Of a stretch of DNA of 64,000 bases, positions 2,324 to 33,845 are shown piece by piece. A program made the position numbers and the translations under genes. Under the pieces are notes generated by a model. It saw only the letters and a program-made list of their open reading frames with translations, was not told where the DNA came from and did no database searches. How positions within the stretch are numbered: the first letter of the stretch is position 1; each line of letters starts with the position of its first letter. The stretch is from a virus. The stretch spans positions 35,183 through 99,182 of IMG/VR virus record IMGVR_UViG_3300006923_001878, one strand, 5' to 3'.

Positions 2324-4269
2324 TGGCTGATCAAAGACAAAATCCGAAAAATGAAGTGTCACCACTTTTTAAAAAGTTAACTAAAATGTTTTCCGGGCCG
2401 CTTGTAAACTACAAGTCCCAAATCCCAAGAAACAATAAAAAGAGAAAGCTTGATAAACATGGAAGTGATTTTCGTTCTCTTGAAGGTTATAAATTTAAAA
2501 GGCGAGCATACAACGCTTTTGATAACTTAAATACAAAACATATGAACCAGATTGGTAGAGCGGAGCGTTACTCTGACTTTGACCAAATGGAGTTTTATCC
2601 CTTACTACACTCAGCGATGGATATCTATGCTGATGAAATGACGACTCATAACGAGTTGGTCAAACTTCTCAAGATTGATTGCCCAAACGACGAGATTAAA
2701 GACGTATTGGATGTTCTTTTTTACAACGTTCTAAATATTAATGACAACCTATTCGAATGGTGTCGAACTATGTGCAAGAATGGAGATTTCTTCATGTATT
2801 TAGATGTCAATGATGACATGGGTGTTAAAAACGTAATCGGGCTTCCACCAGAAGAAATCGAAAGACTTGAGGGCGAAGACCAGACCAATGCTAATTATGT
2901 TCAGTTTCAATGGAATGCCGGTGGGTTAACTTTTGAAAACTGGCAAATTGCTCACTTTCGTATCCTAGGAAATGATCGCTATGCTCCTTACGGAACCTCA
3001 GTTCTTGAAGGAGCAAGACGTATCTGGCGTCAGTTAACTATGATGGAAGATGCGATGATGGCGTATCGTATCGTTAGGGCACCAGAAAGGCGTGTGTTCA
3101 AGATTAACGTGTCTGGTATCCCTGATGAAGACGTTGAACAGTTCGTTCAGAGTATTATCACAAATACTAAACGACACCAAGTTGTAGATCCTGATAGTGG
3201 CCGTGTTGACTTACGTTATAATCCCCTGGGAGTTGAAGAAGATATCTATCTACCATTCGTTGAAGGCAGTGAGCACTCAATCGATGTCCTACCTTCTGGT
3301 CAGAACACTGCACATATTGAAGATGTTGAGTATCTTAAGAATATGCTTCTATCTGCAATCAAGATTCCCAAGGCCTATCTTTCAATGGGTGACGATGGGG
3401 GAGAGGACGGTTCAACTTTATCCCAGAAAGATATTAGGTTTGCAAGAACGATCCAAAGATTACAAAGAAATGTAGTTGCACAACTTGAAAAAATTGCAAT
3501 CGTTCATTTATTTACTCTTGGATATAGAGGTGAGGATGTAATCTCATTTACTCTATCTCTAAATAATCCTTCAAAACTATCGCAACTTCAAGAGCTTGAG
3601 CACTGGAGAACCAAATTAGAAGTAGGATCCTCAGCCAAGGAAAGTTTCTTTTCTGAAGCATGGGTTGCTCGTAATATCTTTAATCTTTCTGACGATGAGT
3701 TTGAAAGAAACCACTACGAGAAATTCTCAGATAAGAAGTTTGAGATGCAGATCGCTGCAATCGAAAAAGAACCAAACTTTGCAGGCGGTGGTCACGGCAC
3801 AAGTCTTGGTGGAGCAGGCGCAGGTGGGGAAATTGGCGACGAATTCGCTACAGGAACTACATTAAGCCCAGAAGCAGAAGAAACAGAAATGATGGGATCC
3901 GAAGAGATGGGTGGGGACGCCGCTCCCGCTGCTGAGGAAGAAAAGAGTCCTTTACTGGCAGCTCCTGGTGAAGAAGCTCCAGCGAAAAGAGTTCCTGATG
4001 GATATACTACTACTTTAAGATCTAAAGGTAAGAATTATAAACCAGCTATTTCAGATCGAAGAAAAAGTTCAGGCCCTCGTGAAAAGAATTATAGAGCTAT
4101 GAGTGGTACGAAAACCTCTCTTCCAAGAGCAACAACTACAAAAAACTTTAGTAGAGTTCAGTATGGATTAATGGAGAGTAAAGATACTATTTATAGTAAG
4201 CTTTTGAAGCTAGAACAGCGTCAAGAGGATATTCTGGAGAATCATAAAGATGAAGATACGACACAATAA
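2323..4269 (+). CDS. 20: Portal protein (gp20-like)
   Basis: Dodecameric head vertex through which DNA enters and leaves, and the platform for prohead assembly. Identification rests on position (directly after gp17, before the prohead protease) and on typical portal features such as the HFRILGNDRYAPYGTSVLEG stretch and IPKAYLSMGDDG followed by a long helix. At 648 residues it is longer than T4 gp20. The excess is mostly a C-terminal tail (about residues 490-630) rich in Gly, Glu, Ala and Lys/Arg that looks disordered. The start codon overlaps the terminase stop. Confidence 0.9.
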   Translation: MADQRQNPKNEVSPLFKKLTKMFSGPLVNYKSQIPRNNKKRKLDKHGSDFRSLEGYKFKRRAYNAFDNLNTKHMNQIGRAERYSDFDQMEFYPLLHSAMDIYADEMTTHNELVKLLKIDCPNDEIKDVLDVLFYNVLNINDNLFEWCRTMCKNGDFFMYLDVNDDMGVKNVIGLPPEEIERLEGEDQTNANYVQFQWNAGGLTFENWQIAHFRILGNDRYAPYGTSVLEGARRIWRQLTMMEDAMMAYRIVRAPERRVFKINVSGIPDEDVEQFVQSIITNTKRHQVVDPDSGRVDLRYNPLGVEEDIYLPFVEGSEHSIDVLPSGQNTAHIEDVEYLKNMLLSAIKIPKAYLSMGDDGGEDGSTLSQKDIRFARTIQRLQRNVVAQLEKIAIVHLFTLGYRGEDVISFTLSLNNPSKLSQLQELEHWRTKLEVGSSAKESFFSEAWVARNIFNLSDDEFERNHYEKFSDKKFEMQIAAIEKEPNFAGGGHGTSLGGAGAGGEIGDEFATGTTLSPEAEETEMMGSEEMGGDAAPAAEEEKSPLLAAPGEEAPAKRVPDGYTTTLRSKGKNYKPAISDRRKSSGPREKNYRAMSGTKTSLPRATTTKNFSRVQYGLMESKDTIYSKLLKLEQRQEDILENHKDEDTTQ

Positions 4270-9581: not shown

Positions 9582-11417
9582 ATGAGTACAATCGTAGAAG
9601 CATTAACTCGTGATGTTGTACATACAGACCGTAAGGCAGAAGGCGCAGCTCTCATCAAGAAATGGGAGAAAGTCGGCTTGCTAGAAGGTCTTTCAACAGA
9701 GCGAAGCAAAATTAACATGTCGGTTCTATTAGAGAACCAAGCTAAGGAACTTCTTCGTGAAGCTTCCTCAATGAGTGCCGGTGACGTAGAAGGTTTCGCA
9801 TCAGTTGCGTTCCCAATCGTCCGTAGGGTATTCGGTGGTCTTATTGCAAACGAGCTAGTCTCGGTTCAACCAATGAGTCTTCCATCTGGTCTTATCTTCT
9901 TCCTAGACTTTGTCTACAGTGGTAACACACCTGAGAAACTACACAACGGCGCAGTTGCCGGTGCATCACTATTCGGTGGTGGCGTAGTTGGTAAGGGAAT
10001 CACTGGTGGTGTTGACCTTTCAGGTGATAACGCTGAGACTTCTTTTTATGGCCTTAACAACGGCTTTTCAACTGCTACAGGTAGTATTAATGCGGGTGAA
10101 GCAGACACTAACGTCCAGAATGTCGCTCTCCTTGGAACAGAGACTCTTGTTAGCGATCTATCAGCTCTTGACAAGAAAGTTCTTCGTTATGATCCTGATG
10201 TTCTAGGTTCAACACCAAGCGATATTATCGCTGCTGTAGTTGTTACCCTATCTACTGCTGAGATGGCTCAGATTGATGGTAGCAACTTAGTTACTATCGA
10301 CCTAGTATCTTCAAGTACAACATCCGACGTTCGTGTTCCTGTTGACGGAGCTCTTGGAGCTACTGAGACTAAGGTTATTCGTAGATTAACTCACAAGGGT
10401 GCCTGGGATGCTACAGCAACTACACTTTCAGATGAAGATACGAAGATTACTTTTTATCTACAATCCACTACTGCTGGTGGATTGGTTGCTGCTAATGTTG
10501 CTGGCAACCCTGGCTTAGGCAATACACTTAAGTTCTCACGTAAGGATTCGTGGGGTCAGGGTAACTCAGTAGGTTCAGTTCTAGCCGAACTTCTAGTCCA
10601 AGAAGGGGCGGGTTCTAGTTCGGTAGCTGGTGATGAAAAAGATGGTCACAACCGTACCATCTCAGAAATCGACATTAAGCTTGACTCTATCTCGGTAGAC
10701 GTTAAGACTAAGAAGTTGAAGGCTAAGTGGACTCCTGAGCTTGCTCAAGACATCAACGCTTACCACAACATCGATGCTGAAGTTGAGCTAACTGGTATTC
10801 TTTCAGAGCACGTTGCTCTTGAAATCGACCAAGAAATCCTTAACGAGCTCGTTTCCGGTGGAACTGGCGGAACTCTTTACTGGAGTCGTCACGCTGGTAA
10901 CTTCTTGAACCGTGAAACTGGTGCATCTGTTGTATCAGCTACTGCACCACCTGACTTCACAGGTAACGTGTCAGAATGGTACGAGACTCTTATTGAGACA
11001 ATCAATGATGTGTCTGCACGTATCCACAGAAAGACACTTCGCGGTGGAGCTAACTTCCTAGTAACCTCACCTGAAATTGCTAACATTCTTGAGTTCACTA
11101 GTGGATTCAGAGCAACTGTAAACATGGAAGACCTCAAGGGTGGCTCCGTTGGTGCAGAGAAGGTTGGTTCACTTTCACGCAAGTGGGATGTGTATGTTGA
11201 CCCTTACTTCTACCGTAACGTAATTCTGGTAGGACGTAAAGGCAAGTCATTCCTAGAGTCTGGCTTTGTATACGCACCTTACGTGCCACTACAGACTACA
11301 CCTACTATCTTCGGAACAGAGGACTTCGTACCACGCAAGGGTATGATGACTCGTTACGCCAAGAAGATGGTTCGTCCTGACATGTATGGCCTTGTTGTAG
11401 TGCAAGACTTAGTATAA
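9582..11417 (+). CDS. 23: Major capsid protein (gp23-like)
   Basis: Main shell protein, HK97 fold. Diagnostic stretches are FASVAFPIVRRVFGGL followed by VSVQPMSLPSGLIF (about 72-106), and the C-terminal GFVYAPYVPLQTTP. A likely maturation site for the prohead protease is LLRE60|A61, which fits the T4 LxE|A-type rule and would remove a 60-residue propeptide. At 611 residues it is longer than T4 gp23; the extra sequence is probably an insertion domain around 110-330. AAGGAG lies upstream of ATG. It shares an operon with the scaffold and is closed by a strong terminator. A separate short copy of its residues 72-113 region is encoded at 32348. Confidence 0.95.
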   Translation: MSTIVEALTRDVVHTDRKAEGAALIKKWEKVGLLEGLSTERSKINMSVLLENQAKELLREASSMSAGDVEGFASVAFPIVRRVFGGLIANELVSVQPMSLPSGLIFFLDFVYSGNTPEKLHNGAVAGASLFGGGVVGKGITGGVDLSGDNAETSFYGLNNGFSTATGSINAGEADTNVQNVALLGTETLVSDLSALDKKVLRYDPDVLGSTPSDIIAAVVVTLSTAEMAQIDGSNLVTIDLVSSSTTSDVRVPVDGALGATETKVIRRLTHKGAWDATATTLSDEDTKITFYLQSTTAGGLVAANVAGNPGLGNTLKFSRKDSWGQGNSVGSVLAELLVQEGAGSSSVAGDEKDGHNRTISEIDIKLDSISVDVKTKKLKAKWTPELAQDINAYHNIDAEVELTGILSEHVALEIDQEILNELVSGGTGGTLYWSRHAGNFLNRETGASVVSATAPPDFTGNVSEWYETLIETINDVSARIHRKTLRGGANFLVTSPEIANILEFTSGFRATVNMEDLKGGSVGAEKVGSLSRKWDVYVDPYFYRNVILVGRKGKSFLESGFVYAPYVPLQTTPTIFGTEDFVPRKGMMTRYAKKMVRPDMYGLVVVQDLV

Positions 11418-13892: not shown

Positions 13893-15140
13893 ATGTCACA
13901 ACCAATATTAACTCCAGCGAGTACAACAAGTACCACAATTTTATCAGCTTCAGCAACGCCTGCGGAGGCTGCTGCTTATGCTTTTAAAGCAGACGCTTAT
14001 GCAGCAAATCAATATTTTTTATCAGGAGCGGCGGATCAGGTATCTTATACATATAAGAGATTGGGTGGCGATGTTCTTGATATCGAAATTGTTAATGATA
14101 TGGTCTTCGAAGCATATGAAGAAGCAGTTGTGGAATATAGTTATCTTGTTAATATTCATCAAGCAAAAAATGCACTCCCGAGTCTTCTTGGAGACACTAC
14201 AGGAAGTTTTGATCATACAGGACAATTAATATCAGGCGATTCCCTTGAAAACATTAATGTCGAGTTAAAGTATCCAAGGTTTGAAATGCCACATCCAAAA
14301 AGAGTCGGAATTGGACTTGGACGAGAAGGCGGGTTCGGTGGCGACGCTCAAATTCACACAGGTTCTTTTACTCCGGTGGTAAGACAGCAAGAATACGATC
14401 TACAGGCTTTAGTGTCTGATAGCCATCCAACTCTTGATATTGGAAATAAAAGAATTGTTATTCAAACAGTATATTATAAGACTCCAAGAACTATGTGGAG
14501 GTTCTTTTCATATTATGGTGGCTTGAATGTTGTTGGAAACCTTATGGACTATGGACAATACTCAGACCGCTCTACATATGAGATTGTTCCAACTTGGCAA
14601 AATAAGTTGCAGGCCATGCAGTTTGAAGACTCTTTATATACAAGAACTTCACACTACTCTTATGATGTGATTAATAATAGGTTGAGAATATTTCCAACTC
14701 CAGAAGCTTCATTGTATCCAGATAAGATTTATTTTAGATTTTATGTCCCAGCAGATGCTTGGGTTGAAGAGGCTGATCGCCAAACTGGCACTTCTGGTAT
14801 CAACAATATGAATACACTTCCTTTTGCTAACGTACCATATACAAGCATCAACTCAATTGGCAAGCAGTGGATTCGTAGATATGGCTTTTCTGTGGCTAAA
14901 AGGATGCTTGGACGGGTGCGCTCCAAATTGGACAGCCTCCCCTTCTCAGGGCAAGATGTGACCCTGGATGGGAAAGACCTCATTTCAGAGGCAACAGAGG
15001 AACAAGAAAAGCTCAGAGAAGAGCTTAAAACTGTTCTTGACGAGCTTACTTATAATCAAGTGGCAGAGAATCAAGCAAAGATGGTCGAGGATTCCAGGAA
15101 GGCTATACGCGGAACACCTCTTAAGATTTACGTGGGATAA
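13893..15140 (+). CDS. 13: Neck/head-completion protein (gp13-like)
   Basis: A 415-residue protein whose KRLGGDVLDIEIVNDMVFEA segment and position between capsid and the gp14/gp15-like genes fit the T4-type neck protein gp13, which seals the filled head and joins it to the tail. The C-terminus is a Glu/Lys helix ending RGTPLKIYVG. The Ala/Ser-rich N-terminus (1-35) is probably flexible. SD GAGGG lies upstream. It is longer than T4 gp13, so the assignment is by context plus partial resemblance. Confidence 0.6.
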   Translation: MSQPILTPASTTSTTILSASATPAEAAAYAFKADAYAANQYFLSGAADQVSYTYKRLGGDVLDIEIVNDMVFEAYEEAVVEYSYLVNIHQAKNALPSLLGDTTGSFDHTGQLISGDSLENINVELKYPRFEMPHPKRVGIGLGREGGFGGDAQIHTGSFTPVVRQQEYDLQALVSDSHPTLDIGNKRIVIQTVYYKTPRTMWRFFSYYGGLNVVGNLMDYGQYSDRSTYEIVPTWQNKLQAMQFEDSLYTRTSHYSYDVINNRLRIFPTPEASLYPDKIYFRFYVPADAWVEEADRQTGTSGINNMNTLPFANVPYTSINSIGKQWIRRYGFSVAKRMLGRVRSKLDSLPFSGQDVTLDGKDLISEATEEQEKLREELKTVLDELTYNQVAENQAKMVEDSRKAIRGTPLKIYVG

Positions 15141-31126: not shown

Positions 31127-32254
31127 ATGGCAAGGGCTAAGAAAAAGAAAGAAGTAGTAAGAGGCAAGATAAGCACTGAACAACTAAGAGGCCTTCTTAA
31201 TAAGAAGGCTGGTGAAACAATTGCTTATGACTTGGGAGCTAATAACCCTACTGATGTAGTGGATTGGATTCCTACAGGCGCGAGATGGTTAGACTCCATT
31301 ATTTGCAAAGGCAAGTTGGCAGGTATTCCTGTTGGCAAAGTTTCTGAAATCGCAGGACTAACTGCGACAGGAAAGAGCTATATGGCTGCGCAGATTGCGG
31401 CTAATGCCCAGAAGAAAGGAATCGTCCCTGTTTACTTCGACTCAGAGTCAGCACTAGACTCTGACTTCTTAATTAATGCCGGATGTAACTTGGAAGAGTT
31501 GATTTACATCCAGGCAAGGTCTGTAGAATTCGTTCTAGAGACAATTGAGGATATTATGGCAGCTTCTGAGACGAGGCACTTATTTATCCTTGATTCCCTT
31601 GCCTTCACTCCTGCTGAGTCAGACATTGCTGGTGATTATAATCCGCAATCTTCGATGGCAGTGAAGCCGCGAGTTATGGCCAAGGGTTTATCGAAATTGA
31701 TAATTCCCTTGGCCAACACTCAGTCAACATTTTTGATTCTAAATCAACTTAAAACAAACATCTCGTCAAATCTCTTTGATATGAAGATGAATCCATATTT
31801 TACTCCTGGTGGTAAAGCAACCGCCTACTCTTACTCATTAAGAATCTGGCTAACTGGGAAACAAACGAAAGACTCAGCTATCTATGATGATAAGGGATAT
31901 AAAGTCGGATCTGAGATTAAAGCTCGGCTAAAGAAGTCGAGATTTGGAACTGAAAACAGGACCTGTGAGTTCAAGATCTTATGGGGCGCTGACTCGGTTG
32001 CTATCCAAGATGAAGAGTCCTGGCTTGAGGCAATAAGGCCTTCGGATCAGATTAAAACAGGAGCCTGGAACACTCTCTTCTATCAAGACGGCACTGAAAA
32101 GAAGTTCCAAAGAGCTACTTGGCTTAAAGAATTAGAAGACCCTCTATTCAGAGCCGAAGTGTTAAGAATCATGGATGAAGAAGTCATCCAGAAGTTTGAG
32201 TCAAGAGAAGGAAATGCTTCCGACTATTATGACTCACAAGATTCAGAGGAATAA
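31127..32254 (+). CDS. uvsX: RecA/UvsX-type recombinase
   Basis: Strand-exchange protein for recombination-dependent replication and repair. Walker A is GLTATGKS (77-84), Walker B the hydrophobic strand HLFILDSLAF, followed by a RecA-like region with QLKTNISSNLFDMKMNPYFT and PGGKATAYSYSLR. The chosen start is ATG 31127 with ACGGAG upstream; the in-frame TTG 31097 lies inside the terminator and is unlikely. 375 residues matches UvsX. The Lys-rich N-terminus and acidic C-terminus are usual in this family. Confidence 0.92.
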   Translation: MARAKKKKEVVRGKISTEQLRGLLNKKAGETIAYDLGANNPTDVVDWIPTGARWLDSIICKGKLAGIPVGKVSEIAGLTATGKSYMAAQIAANAQKKGIVPVYFDSESALDSDFLINAGCNLEELIYIQARSVEFVLETIEDIMAASETRHLFILDSLAFTPAESDIAGDYNPQSSMAVKPRVMAKGLSKLIIPLANTQSTFLILNQLKTNISSNLFDMKMNPYFTPGGKATAYSYSLRIWLTGKQTKDSAIYDDKGYKVGSEIKARLKKSRFGTENRTCEFKILWGADSVAIQDEESWLEAIRPSDQIKTGAWNTLFYQDGTEKKFQRATWLKELEDPLFRAEVLRIMDEEVIQKFESREGNASDYYDSQDSEE

Positions 32255-32256
32255 CA

Positions 32257-32355
32257 GTGAATTACTATAAGGTAACTCTGGTTTATGACGGAAAAGAGTT
32301 CCATGGTGGGCGACTCTTGGAAGAACTTAAGAGAATGGCAGAAGGCAATGAATAA
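32257..32355 (+). CDS. Small ORF (32 aa) between uvsX and the capsid-like fragment
   Basis: GTG start 2 bases after the uvsX stop with AGAGGA upstream; encodes MNYYKVTLVYDGKEFHGGRL plus a helical tail, and ends TAA 32353-32355. It overlaps the next start by 8 bases, as real gene pairs here do. Short, so moderate confidence; function unknown. Confidence 0.45.
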   Translation: MNYYKVTLVYDGKEFHGGRLLEELKRMAEGNE

Positions 32356-32626
32356 TTTAAAGAACCAAGGTCCTTTGAAAAAAGTTGGCGATACTCTTGG
32401 GCACTTCATAGGCGAAAATTATGTAACCATAGAAGGAAAACGTTACCCACTCTTTAAGGATGCACGACCACACCAGTTTAGCTCAATAGCATTCCCGATA
32501 ATAACAAGAGCATTTCCACCACAACTGAGAAACAGCCTTGTTTCAGTTCAACCAATGAGTGTTCCATCTGAACAGATTTTTAAAATGGATTTCAAATACA
32601 CAAACAAGGAAGAAGACGATGAGTGA
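32348..32626 (+). CDS. Stand-alone fragment of major capsid protein (Gol-region-like)
   Basis: A 92-residue protein (ATG 32348 preceded by AGAAGG; an upstream in-frame start at 32285 is less likely). Residues 44-85 align without gaps to residues 72-113 of this phage's major capsid protein: FSSIAFPIITRAF versus FASVAFPIVRRVF, then LVSVQPMSVPS versus LVSVQPMSLPS, and IFKMDFKYT versus IFFLDFVYS. About 24 of 42 positions are identical. Residues 1-43 show no such match (VTIEGKRYPLFKDARPHQ). The segment corresponds to the T4 gp23 Gol-peptide region that activates the host Lit protease. It sits in the replication block. Function is unknown; an assembly modulator or decoy is possible. Confidence 0.75.
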   Translation: MNNLKNQGPLKKVGDTLGHFIGENYVTIEGKRYPLFKDARPHQFSSIAFPIITRAFPPQLRNSLVSVQPMSVPSEQIFKMDFKYTNKEEDDE

Positions 32627-32873
32627 ACGAGATTTTGTATACTGGCTTCAAGGATATCTTGAAGTTAGTAATGCTAATGAATTAGATGAGTCACAGCTAC
32701 AAATAGTTAAGGATCACCTAGCCTTGGTCTTAAAAAAAGTAACACCAGAATATGATGGGAATAGGTTCGTAAACAACCTCGCTAGACTAAGAGGGGAAAG
32801 AGATGCGAAGCTTTGTAGCAACGCAGAACTAGAGGAAATAGGTAATGCTCTTCCAGCTCAATTAACATGCTAA
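32619..32873 (+). CDS. Small phage protein with FVYWLQGYLE motif
   Basis: An 84-residue helical protein from ATG 32619 (8-base overlap with the upstream gene). MSERDFVYWLQGYLEVSNAN followed by an HLALVLKKVTP helix resembles a widespread small phage family with FxYWLQGxxE near the N-terminus, of unknown function. An upstream in-frame start exists but would extend further into the capsid-like gene. Confidence 0.65.
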   Translation: MSERDFVYWLQGYLEVSNANELDESQLQIVKDHLALVLKKVTPEYDGNRFVNNLARLRGERDAKLCSNAELEEIGNALPAQLTC

Positions 32874-32882
32874 AGGAACCGA

Positions 32883-33845
32883 ATGAACCAACCAAATAGA
32901 ATATTAATAATTGATGCATTAAACATGTATCTAAGAAGCTTCATTATCAATCCCACACTGACACCATCTGGCGACCCTGCCGGTGGTGTTGTTGGTTTTA
33001 TGAAGAGTTTACAAAAAACAATTAGGGAGATGCAACCAGATCAGGTGTATATTTGCTGGGATGGTCAGAGAGGCACCAATAACCGAAAGAACTTGAATAA
33101 AGACTATAAAGAAGGGCGTAAGCCCATTCGATTCAATCGAAGATTTGCAGAACTCAACGAAGAACAAGAGCTCCAAAATAAAATCTGGCAACAGCAGAGA
33201 CTTATTGAGTATCTTAATGAAATGCCAGTTGCACAGTTGCTATTTGATGAAGCGGAGGCTGATGATGTTATCTCAGCCATCGTAGCAGATACTCCTGGCG
33301 TTGAAAAAGTGATTATTTCCATGGATAAAGACTTTTATCAACTCTTAGACAAAGAAACTATCATTTATAGCCCAGTTCAAAAGAAGTTTGTGTCGGAAGT
33401 TTCTCTTTTGGAAGAAGAAAACATACACCCAGCCAATTTTGCACTAGCAAAAGCAATTGTTGGAGACAAATCTGACAATATTCTTGGTGTTCAAGGTGTT
33501 GGAATGAAGACTCTAACCAAAAGATTCCCAATGCTAGCGGATCCTAACGCCCATACCATCTCGGAATTGCTAATGAAAGCAAAAACAGTCGAGAAACCTT
33601 TAAAAATACACACGAATATTATTGAAAGTGAAGATCGAATACGAGAAAACTATAAAGTCGTGCAGTTGCATATCCCTTCCATTTCCCCAACAAGTAGGGG
33701 TACTATTAGGGGGGTACTAGGTGCGTATCCATACATGTTAAACAGGACCGAGATTACGAAAATGATGATTCAAGACGGGTTTACCGATCTTAACTGGAAT
33801 CCATTATTCGCAAATCTACAAAGAATAAGCTTAAATAACAAATAG
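32883..33845 (+). CDS. rnh: 5'-3' exonuclease/RNase H (T4 Rnh/FEN family)
   Basis: Removes RNA primers and flaps on the lagging strand. The 320-residue protein shows acidic metal sites in order: LIIDALNMYLRS (D near 10), YICWDGQRGTNNRKNLNKDY, DEAEADDVISAIV, ISMDKDFYQLL and VGDKSDNILGVQGVGMKTL, the last being the helix-hairpin-helix region of FEN enzymes. Length is like T4 RNase H (305). AAAGGAACC lies upstream. Confidence 0.88.
   Translation: MNQPNRILIIDALNMYLRSFIINPTLTPSGDPAGGVVGFMKSLQKTIREMQPDQVYICWDGQRGTNNRKNLNKDYKEGRKPIRFNRRFAELNEEQELQNKIWQQQRLIEYLNEMPVAQLLFDEAEADDVISAIVADTPGVEKVIISMDKDFYQLLDKETIIYSPVQKKFVSEVSLLEEENIHPANFALAKAIVGDKSDNILGVQGVGMKTLTKRFPMLADPNAHTISELLMKAKTVEKPLKIHTNIIESEDRIRENYKVVQLHIPSISPTSRGTIRGVLGAYPYMLNRTEITKMMIQDGFTDLNWNPLFANLQRISLNNK

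Follow-up and report, generated by a model that had tools for sequence, protein, structure and literature searches.

The Gol peptide of phage T4 is a stretch of the major capsid protein gp23 with a second life as a ligand of a host protein. As described in PMC3014915, it binds domains II and III of EF-Tu with a preference for EF-Tu:GDP, inhibits the GTPase of EF-Tu, and makes EF-Tu cleavable by the Lit protease; a 29-residue region defines Gol function, 13 residues matter within a 20-amino-acid core, and no other region of gp23 is as strongly conserved, a conservation that extends across T4-like phages. In the prohead the N-terminal region of gp23 is disordered; after expansion it contacts its neighbours (PMC9958956). 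Such disorder makes it plausible that this segment could also act as a free peptide. Here, we describe a 92-amino-acid open reading frame (ORF; 32348..32626, plus strand) in a 64,000-nucleotide stretch of DNA from a T4-like phage (positions 35,183 to 99,182 of IMG/VR record IMGVR_UViG_3300006923_001878, hereafter the window), which carries a version of the Gol region outside the capsid gene. We favour, if tentatively, the reading that this gene encodes a small protein displaying a portable capsid Gol peptide, most likely to engage host EF-Tu. A literature search whose coverage did not extend to subscription journals found no paper describing stand-alone Gol proteins.

The 92-residue protein and the capsid Gol region

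Residues 44-85 of the protein (FSSIAFPIITRAFPPQLRNSLVSVQPMSVPSEQIFKMDFKYT; 32477..32602, plus strand) align without a single gap with residues 72-113 of the phage's own major capsid protein, 24 of the 42 residues being identical, just as a first, sequence-only reading of this DNA had claimed. The BLOSUM62 score of this alignment is 121; 5000 shuffles gave 29 on average and 62 at most. Within the phage's own record, the match to the capsid protein has an E value of 3.9e-11. A core profile, built from capsid sequences only to avoid circularity, picked out the segment among 61,839 ORFs with E 3e-6. The protein also matches the Pfam family Gp23 (PF07068; 31.0 bits, E 2.3e-7, with a curated cut-off of 24.4) and PHROG 138 (E 2.7e-5). 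The Pfam match spans profile positions 3-49 of 376 only, about 12% of the profile; the remainder of the capsid protein is missing, and the product is no full-length shell protein (about 450-650 amino acids).

The capsid gene itself (9582..11417, plus strand) encodes an intact protein of 611 amino acids, with matches to PHROG 138 (E 2.7e-68) and to gp23 in the PDB (E about 1e-29). Its Gol or N-arm region (residues 72-113; 9795..9920, plus strand) was aligned to T4-type gp23 VRRAIPNLIAFDICGVQPMNSPTGQVFALRAVYG, and the 92-residue protein could likewise be aligned with gp23 VRRAIPNLIAFDICGVQPMNSPTGQVFAL, as expected of a homologue of the Gol stretch, which upholds the earlier identification of the segment. 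From this alignment and PMC9958956, the segment begins at the end of the 25-residue N-fist of mature gp23, where the N-arm starts. Another ORF (13893-15140) was ruled out as a capsid protein for lack of similarity. AlphaFold models of the capsid protein (predicted local distance difference test score, pLDDT, of 47) and of the 92-residue protein (pLDDT 44) were too poor to use for any structural claim.

At the DNA level the segment and the capsid gene share 72 of 126 positions (57%), and the same codon is used at 11 of the 24 shared residues, with a different one at the other 13. This low identity, together with the differing codons, marks the relationship as an old one and not a recent duplication. 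The capsids nearest to the 92-residue copy are those of its own clade (18/32 identical residues, versus 9-13/32 for other capsids).

The ORF is a real gene with correctly placed start and end. A Shine-Dalgarno sequence (AGAAGG) precedes the start at 32348 and is lacking at an alternative in-frame start at 32285 (113 amino acids), which was thereby ruled out. Codon log-likelihood was above zero in this frame only, with the N-terminal 43 codons and the capsid-like part each scored separately. The N-terminal 43 residues (32348..32476, plus strand) match nothing in Pfam or PHROG up to E 10, and their description as unrelated thus stands.

Small proteins sharing the Gol core

The capsid-only profile recovered three families of short proteins with mutually unrelated N-termini, the 92-residue protein representing family i. 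Stand-alone members scored between E 6e-10 and 0.012, and the next ORF outside the families scored 0.27. Family ii is a protein of 65-67 amino acids (MKLLRKILIRSGIWGYFYPP...LTADEIVSVQPMTAPS..F) present in four marine contigs with 75-91% identity; one of these records (G043) also holds an intact 613-amino-acid capsid gene. Family iii corresponds to PHROG 12830 and comprises proteins of 130-141 amino acids (259 in one phage) from seven Aeromonas phages (Aeh1, Ah1, phiAS5, PX29, AsFcp_4, ZPAH1 and Ahp1), the Citrobacter phages Moon, Merlin, Ursula and Ci1, and Vibrio phage D479; no relative of this family was found in bacterial genome contigs. A separate intact capsid gene is present in every stand-alone record where a capsid gene was found, and the capsid proteins retain their own Gol region intact. 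The 92-residue protein fits the class so proposed, in that it is a short ORF product with a Gol core and a non-capsid N-terminus, from a genome with an intact capsid gene.

Several family iii proteins bear the name 'major head protein' in RefSeq, with a separate full-length capsid gene in each such record. The small non-capsid proteins annotated in this way are NP_944065.1 (Aeh1p187), YP_003969600.1, YP_009011599.1, YP_009146710.1, YP_009203998.1 and AVV44_gp266; the one from Cronobacter phage S13 among them is devoid of the Gol core. Indeed, a total of 29 records have a family iii N-domain, and the core is absent from the Cronobacter S13 homologue as well as from a more distant homologue in Vibrio phage V05, which indicates that the core is a module. 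The Aeh1 copy of the core is nearest to T4-type capsids, its own included. Taken with the three unrelated N-termini, the nearest capsids of the 92-residue copy and of the Aeh1 copy suggest independent captures of the Gol core. Built on at least three unrelated small-protein scaffolds, these proteins form a recurring, previously unrecognised class of small phage proteins with the capsid Gol core.

Mean pairwise identity within family iii is 56% in the 18-column core (P.LIA.EI.GVQPM) and 52% in the N-domain, falling to 25% in the linker and 19% after the core. The ratio of nonsynonymous to synonymous substitution rates (dN/dS) is about 0.1-0.4 among close pairs of family iii, with dN well below dS, and about 0.12-0.19 in family ii. 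Both families are under purifying selection.

Other carriers of the motif were rejected as stand-alones. Campylobacter phage CP220 protein CPT_0142c (304 amino acids; L192, 2893-3807), annotated as 'hypothetical' and with a Gol-like N-terminal motif, is longer and also matches the C-terminal region of the capsid profile; it is probably a paralogue of the gp24-like vertex protein. The motif-bearing proteins of Stenotrophomonas phage RAS14 and of a 517-kb contig (an ORF of 404 amino acids) look like full capsid proteins, and two weak matches in G075 and G115 were attributed to chance. In the 183-kb phage contig G075 (IMGVR_UViG_3300030202_003733; L340), two ORFs that resemble transketolases lie side by side, and a further ORF is of the radical-SAM type; these names come from the translations. 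The idea that stand-alones as a rule lose a capsid-specific glycine did not hold, as serine occupies this position in several capsid proteins; glycine is found there in all 73 of the capsid segments gathered from the clade to which the window belongs.

Gene neighbourhoods and relatives

In 9 of 12 cases (all seven Aeromonas phages, Ci1 and D479), the genes of family iii lie within tRNA arrays; in the other three (Moon, Merlin and Ursula) they are in the island of arn (anti-McrBC) and asiA (anti-sigma), with motA also there in Merlin. The region of this island is early-transcribed in T4. The gene of family i is located between uvsX and a 5'-3' exonuclease gene, as part of a uvsX-exonuclease-helicase operon, in a replication run of SSB, UvsX, exonuclease and helicase. 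These positions speak for host interaction and not for head morphogenesis, with timing deduced from them. In several Aeromonas phages, a conserved gene for a 66-amino-acid protein, Aeh1p186 (L350, 1907-2107; equivalents in L344, L349 and L351), shares 17 nucleotides with the end of the stand-alone Gol gene, and its product is a possible functional partner of the stand-alone protein.

In the window, the 92-residue gene follows the UvsX/RecA-like recombinase gene (31130..32254, plus strand; Pfam RecA, 7.7e-32; PHROG 97) and a 32-amino-acid ORF (GTG at 32257 to 32355, plus strand), which is supported by its sequence and codon log-likelihood and has no family match. The stop of this small ORF overlaps the start of the 92-residue gene by 8 nucleotides, and translational coupling of the two is probable. 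The stop of the 92-residue gene in turn overlaps by 8 nucleotides the start, at 32619, of a gene for an 84-amino-acid protein (32619..32873, plus strand; PHROG 28500, unknown function, E 1.3e-14), so that the gene overlaps its neighbours on both sides, in line with the good coupling asserted at the outset. The 5'-3' exonuclease gene (32883..33845, plus strand; Pfam 5_3_exonuc_N, 2.5e-26) comes next. Late-promoter-like octamers were noted at 4188, 6152, 8248, 11492, 37507, 46926, 49864, 50322 and 51269 of the window, about 15-115 bp upstream of genes. On the coding strand they read TATTTATA (often ACTATTTATA), the reverse complement of T4's TATAAATA, and 15 were counted on both strands versus 5 expected by chance; the stretch from 13.9 to 37.5 kb is free of late-type octamers.

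The 12-kb region with the 92-residue gene is nearly unchanged (0-3 differences) in three IMG/VR contigs. Profile searches of about 100 related whole IMG/VR records yielded capsid genes and one further short-ORF family besides the 92-residue gene, and a DNA scan of viral contigs for VQPMxxPSE found known copies and chance frames only. The slot between uvsX and the exonuclease gene is hypervariable among relatives; in marine T4-like phages (L004-L083) it holds deaminase-like ORFs, GIY-YIG-like endonucleases and many small ORFs, all named from translations.

Possible roles and comparison with known systems

The core retained by the stand-alones falls inside the Gol region. By analogy with gp23, EF-Tu is most likely what they bind: probably made before the capsid protein, they would engage host EF-Tu via the Gol core, with the outcome that translation would be shifted in the phage's favour, or EF-Tu held in a form unusable by a Lit-like capsid sensor, or both. 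The unrelated N-terminal part would confer stability or recruit a second binding partner. Stand-alones may tune translation, protect from Lit-like proteases or trigger them, triggering being the least attractive of the three. In T4 biology, Lit is activated by the Gol peptide in isolation (PMC3014915), so that a Gol copy made early would, in the absence of alterations, set off the sensor by default; the divergence of stand-alones after VQPM would fit a loss of the Lit-activating half with binding retained. On a wider scale, it is conceivable, although we hold this with less confidence, that T4-like phages repeatedly moved an EF-Tu-binding Gol peptide onto small early proteins that engage EF-Tu and steer translation or disarm Lit-type suicide proteases before the capsid is made, as a new effector class hidden under the name 'major head protein'.

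Several observations weigh against engagement of EF-Tu by these proteins. In the 92-residue copy, P.LIA.EI of the core consensus is replaced by P.QLRNSL, and residues fixed in the capsids of its own clade are changed (RR to TR, PSG to PSE); the copy may thus be a specialised or weakened version, binding weakly or binding something else. All known copies of the gene are near-identical and come from one strain, so that selection on this copy is not measurable. The early timing of stand-alones is one that we infer from gene position, and tRNA arrays collect many unrelated small genes.

Among 80 contigs with a related uvsX, the uvsX-exonuclease slot contained nothing like the 92-residue gene in those at up to 66% identity. 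This result partly bears out a sign of decay named in the sequence-only reading, namely absence from close relatives; another sign, frameshifts, was not seen, the gene being open in four contigs without frame breaks. A decaying duplicate or accidental fusion, in which a capsid fragment recombined into the variable slot and now awaits loss, would also fit the hypervariability of this slot, which in some relatives seems to be occupied by homing endonucleases, and the partly degraded core. Nevertheless, the ORF is open, codon-biased and tightly overlapped, and in a crude neutral simulation (half of the estimated distance placed on this branch, and only 10 fourfold sites available) 24/42 identity without a stop was unlikely to arise by drift. 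The Gol core also recurs independently in unrelated small proteins under purifying selection, which bears out, for the class, the initial view that simple decay is unlikely; for the 92-residue gene we give decay a low probability. A similarly low one is given to modulation of capsid assembly, in which a free N-arm copy would bind capsid subunits, scaffold or chaperone, and so delay premature assembly or hamper a co-infecting relative. The segment is indeed the start of an arm whose region of gp23 contacts neighbours after expansion (PMC9958956), but stand-alone genes lie among replication, tRNA or arn-asiA genes and none among head genes, the stretch after VQPM is part of the capsid motif and is unconserved in family iii (19%), and homologues of the vertex protein score hardly at all with the core profile, so that the core is no general shell contact.

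A decoy or antagonist of capsid-sensing defences had been the first suggestion for this gene. The early position of family iii and its anti-restriction neighbourhood in Citrobacter phages fit counter-defence or host takeover, with a decoy or antagonist role as one possibility. In its form independent of Lit and EF-Tu, this explanation holds that the small protein fills a host receptor for the most conserved stretch of T4-type capsids, the real capsid later going unnoticed. Capsid proteins are recurrent defence triggers, as in CapRel (PMC9712102) and TIR-based capsid sensing (PMC11312562); family iii adjoins arn in Citrobacter phages, and the patchy distribution of stand-alones is typical of arms-race genes. 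However, the Lit/EF-Tu pair is the only known sensor of the Gol peptide, and from a true mimic one would expect activation, not blocking, unless it is altered, which leaves such a decoy rather improbable. A further doubt, bearing on the number of captures and not on the 92-residue gene, is that the family ii motif might reflect chance or convergence instead of capsid descent. Only about 20 residues are shared, the Pfam Gp23 match is under the cut-off (E 0.009) and one member retains little beyond EIVSVQPM; on the other hand, the capsid-only profile gives L109 an E value of 2e-6, the match spans L.A.EIVSVQPM..PS...F, and functional convergence would still back the motif reading. Chance or convergence is here unlikely, yet deserves some weight.

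Engagement of EF-Tu by a portable Gol peptide, the reading that we favour, touches on a long-standing question: what makes the Gol stretch of T4-type capsids more conserved than any other part, and for what reason it binds EF-Tu at all. Stand-alones are natural separation-of-function reagents, with the core kept and the shell absent: binding to EF-Tu would show that the interaction serves some purpose other than capsid folding, and inhibition of Lit-type cleavage would place them among the first anti-Lit proteins.

Compared with the Gol peptide of T4 gp23, the 92-residue protein has the same stretch from the same protein family. Unlike it, the gene, known here from its sequence, is separate, has its own N-terminus and lies outside the head operon, and the stand-alone residues after VQPM have diverged. 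The protein passes the cut-off of Pfam Gp23 and is without the HK97 fold. Its closest parallel in design is PHROG 12830 (Aeh1p187, phiAS5_ORF0311, Moon ACQ46_gp176 and Merlin CPT_Merlin284), in which a small non-capsid protein likewise has a Gol core appended to an unrelated N-domain. The 92-residue protein is not a member (E 0.055, over profile positions 93-127, the Gol core, only), in contrast to the Aeromonas AsFcp4 protein (positions 1-128, E 1.3e-48); the N-domains of the two are unrelated, and the core of PHROG 12830 is closer to T4-type capsids. Since PHROG 12830 members are not capsid proteins, their 'major head protein' labels in several RefSeq phage genomes are due for relabelling.
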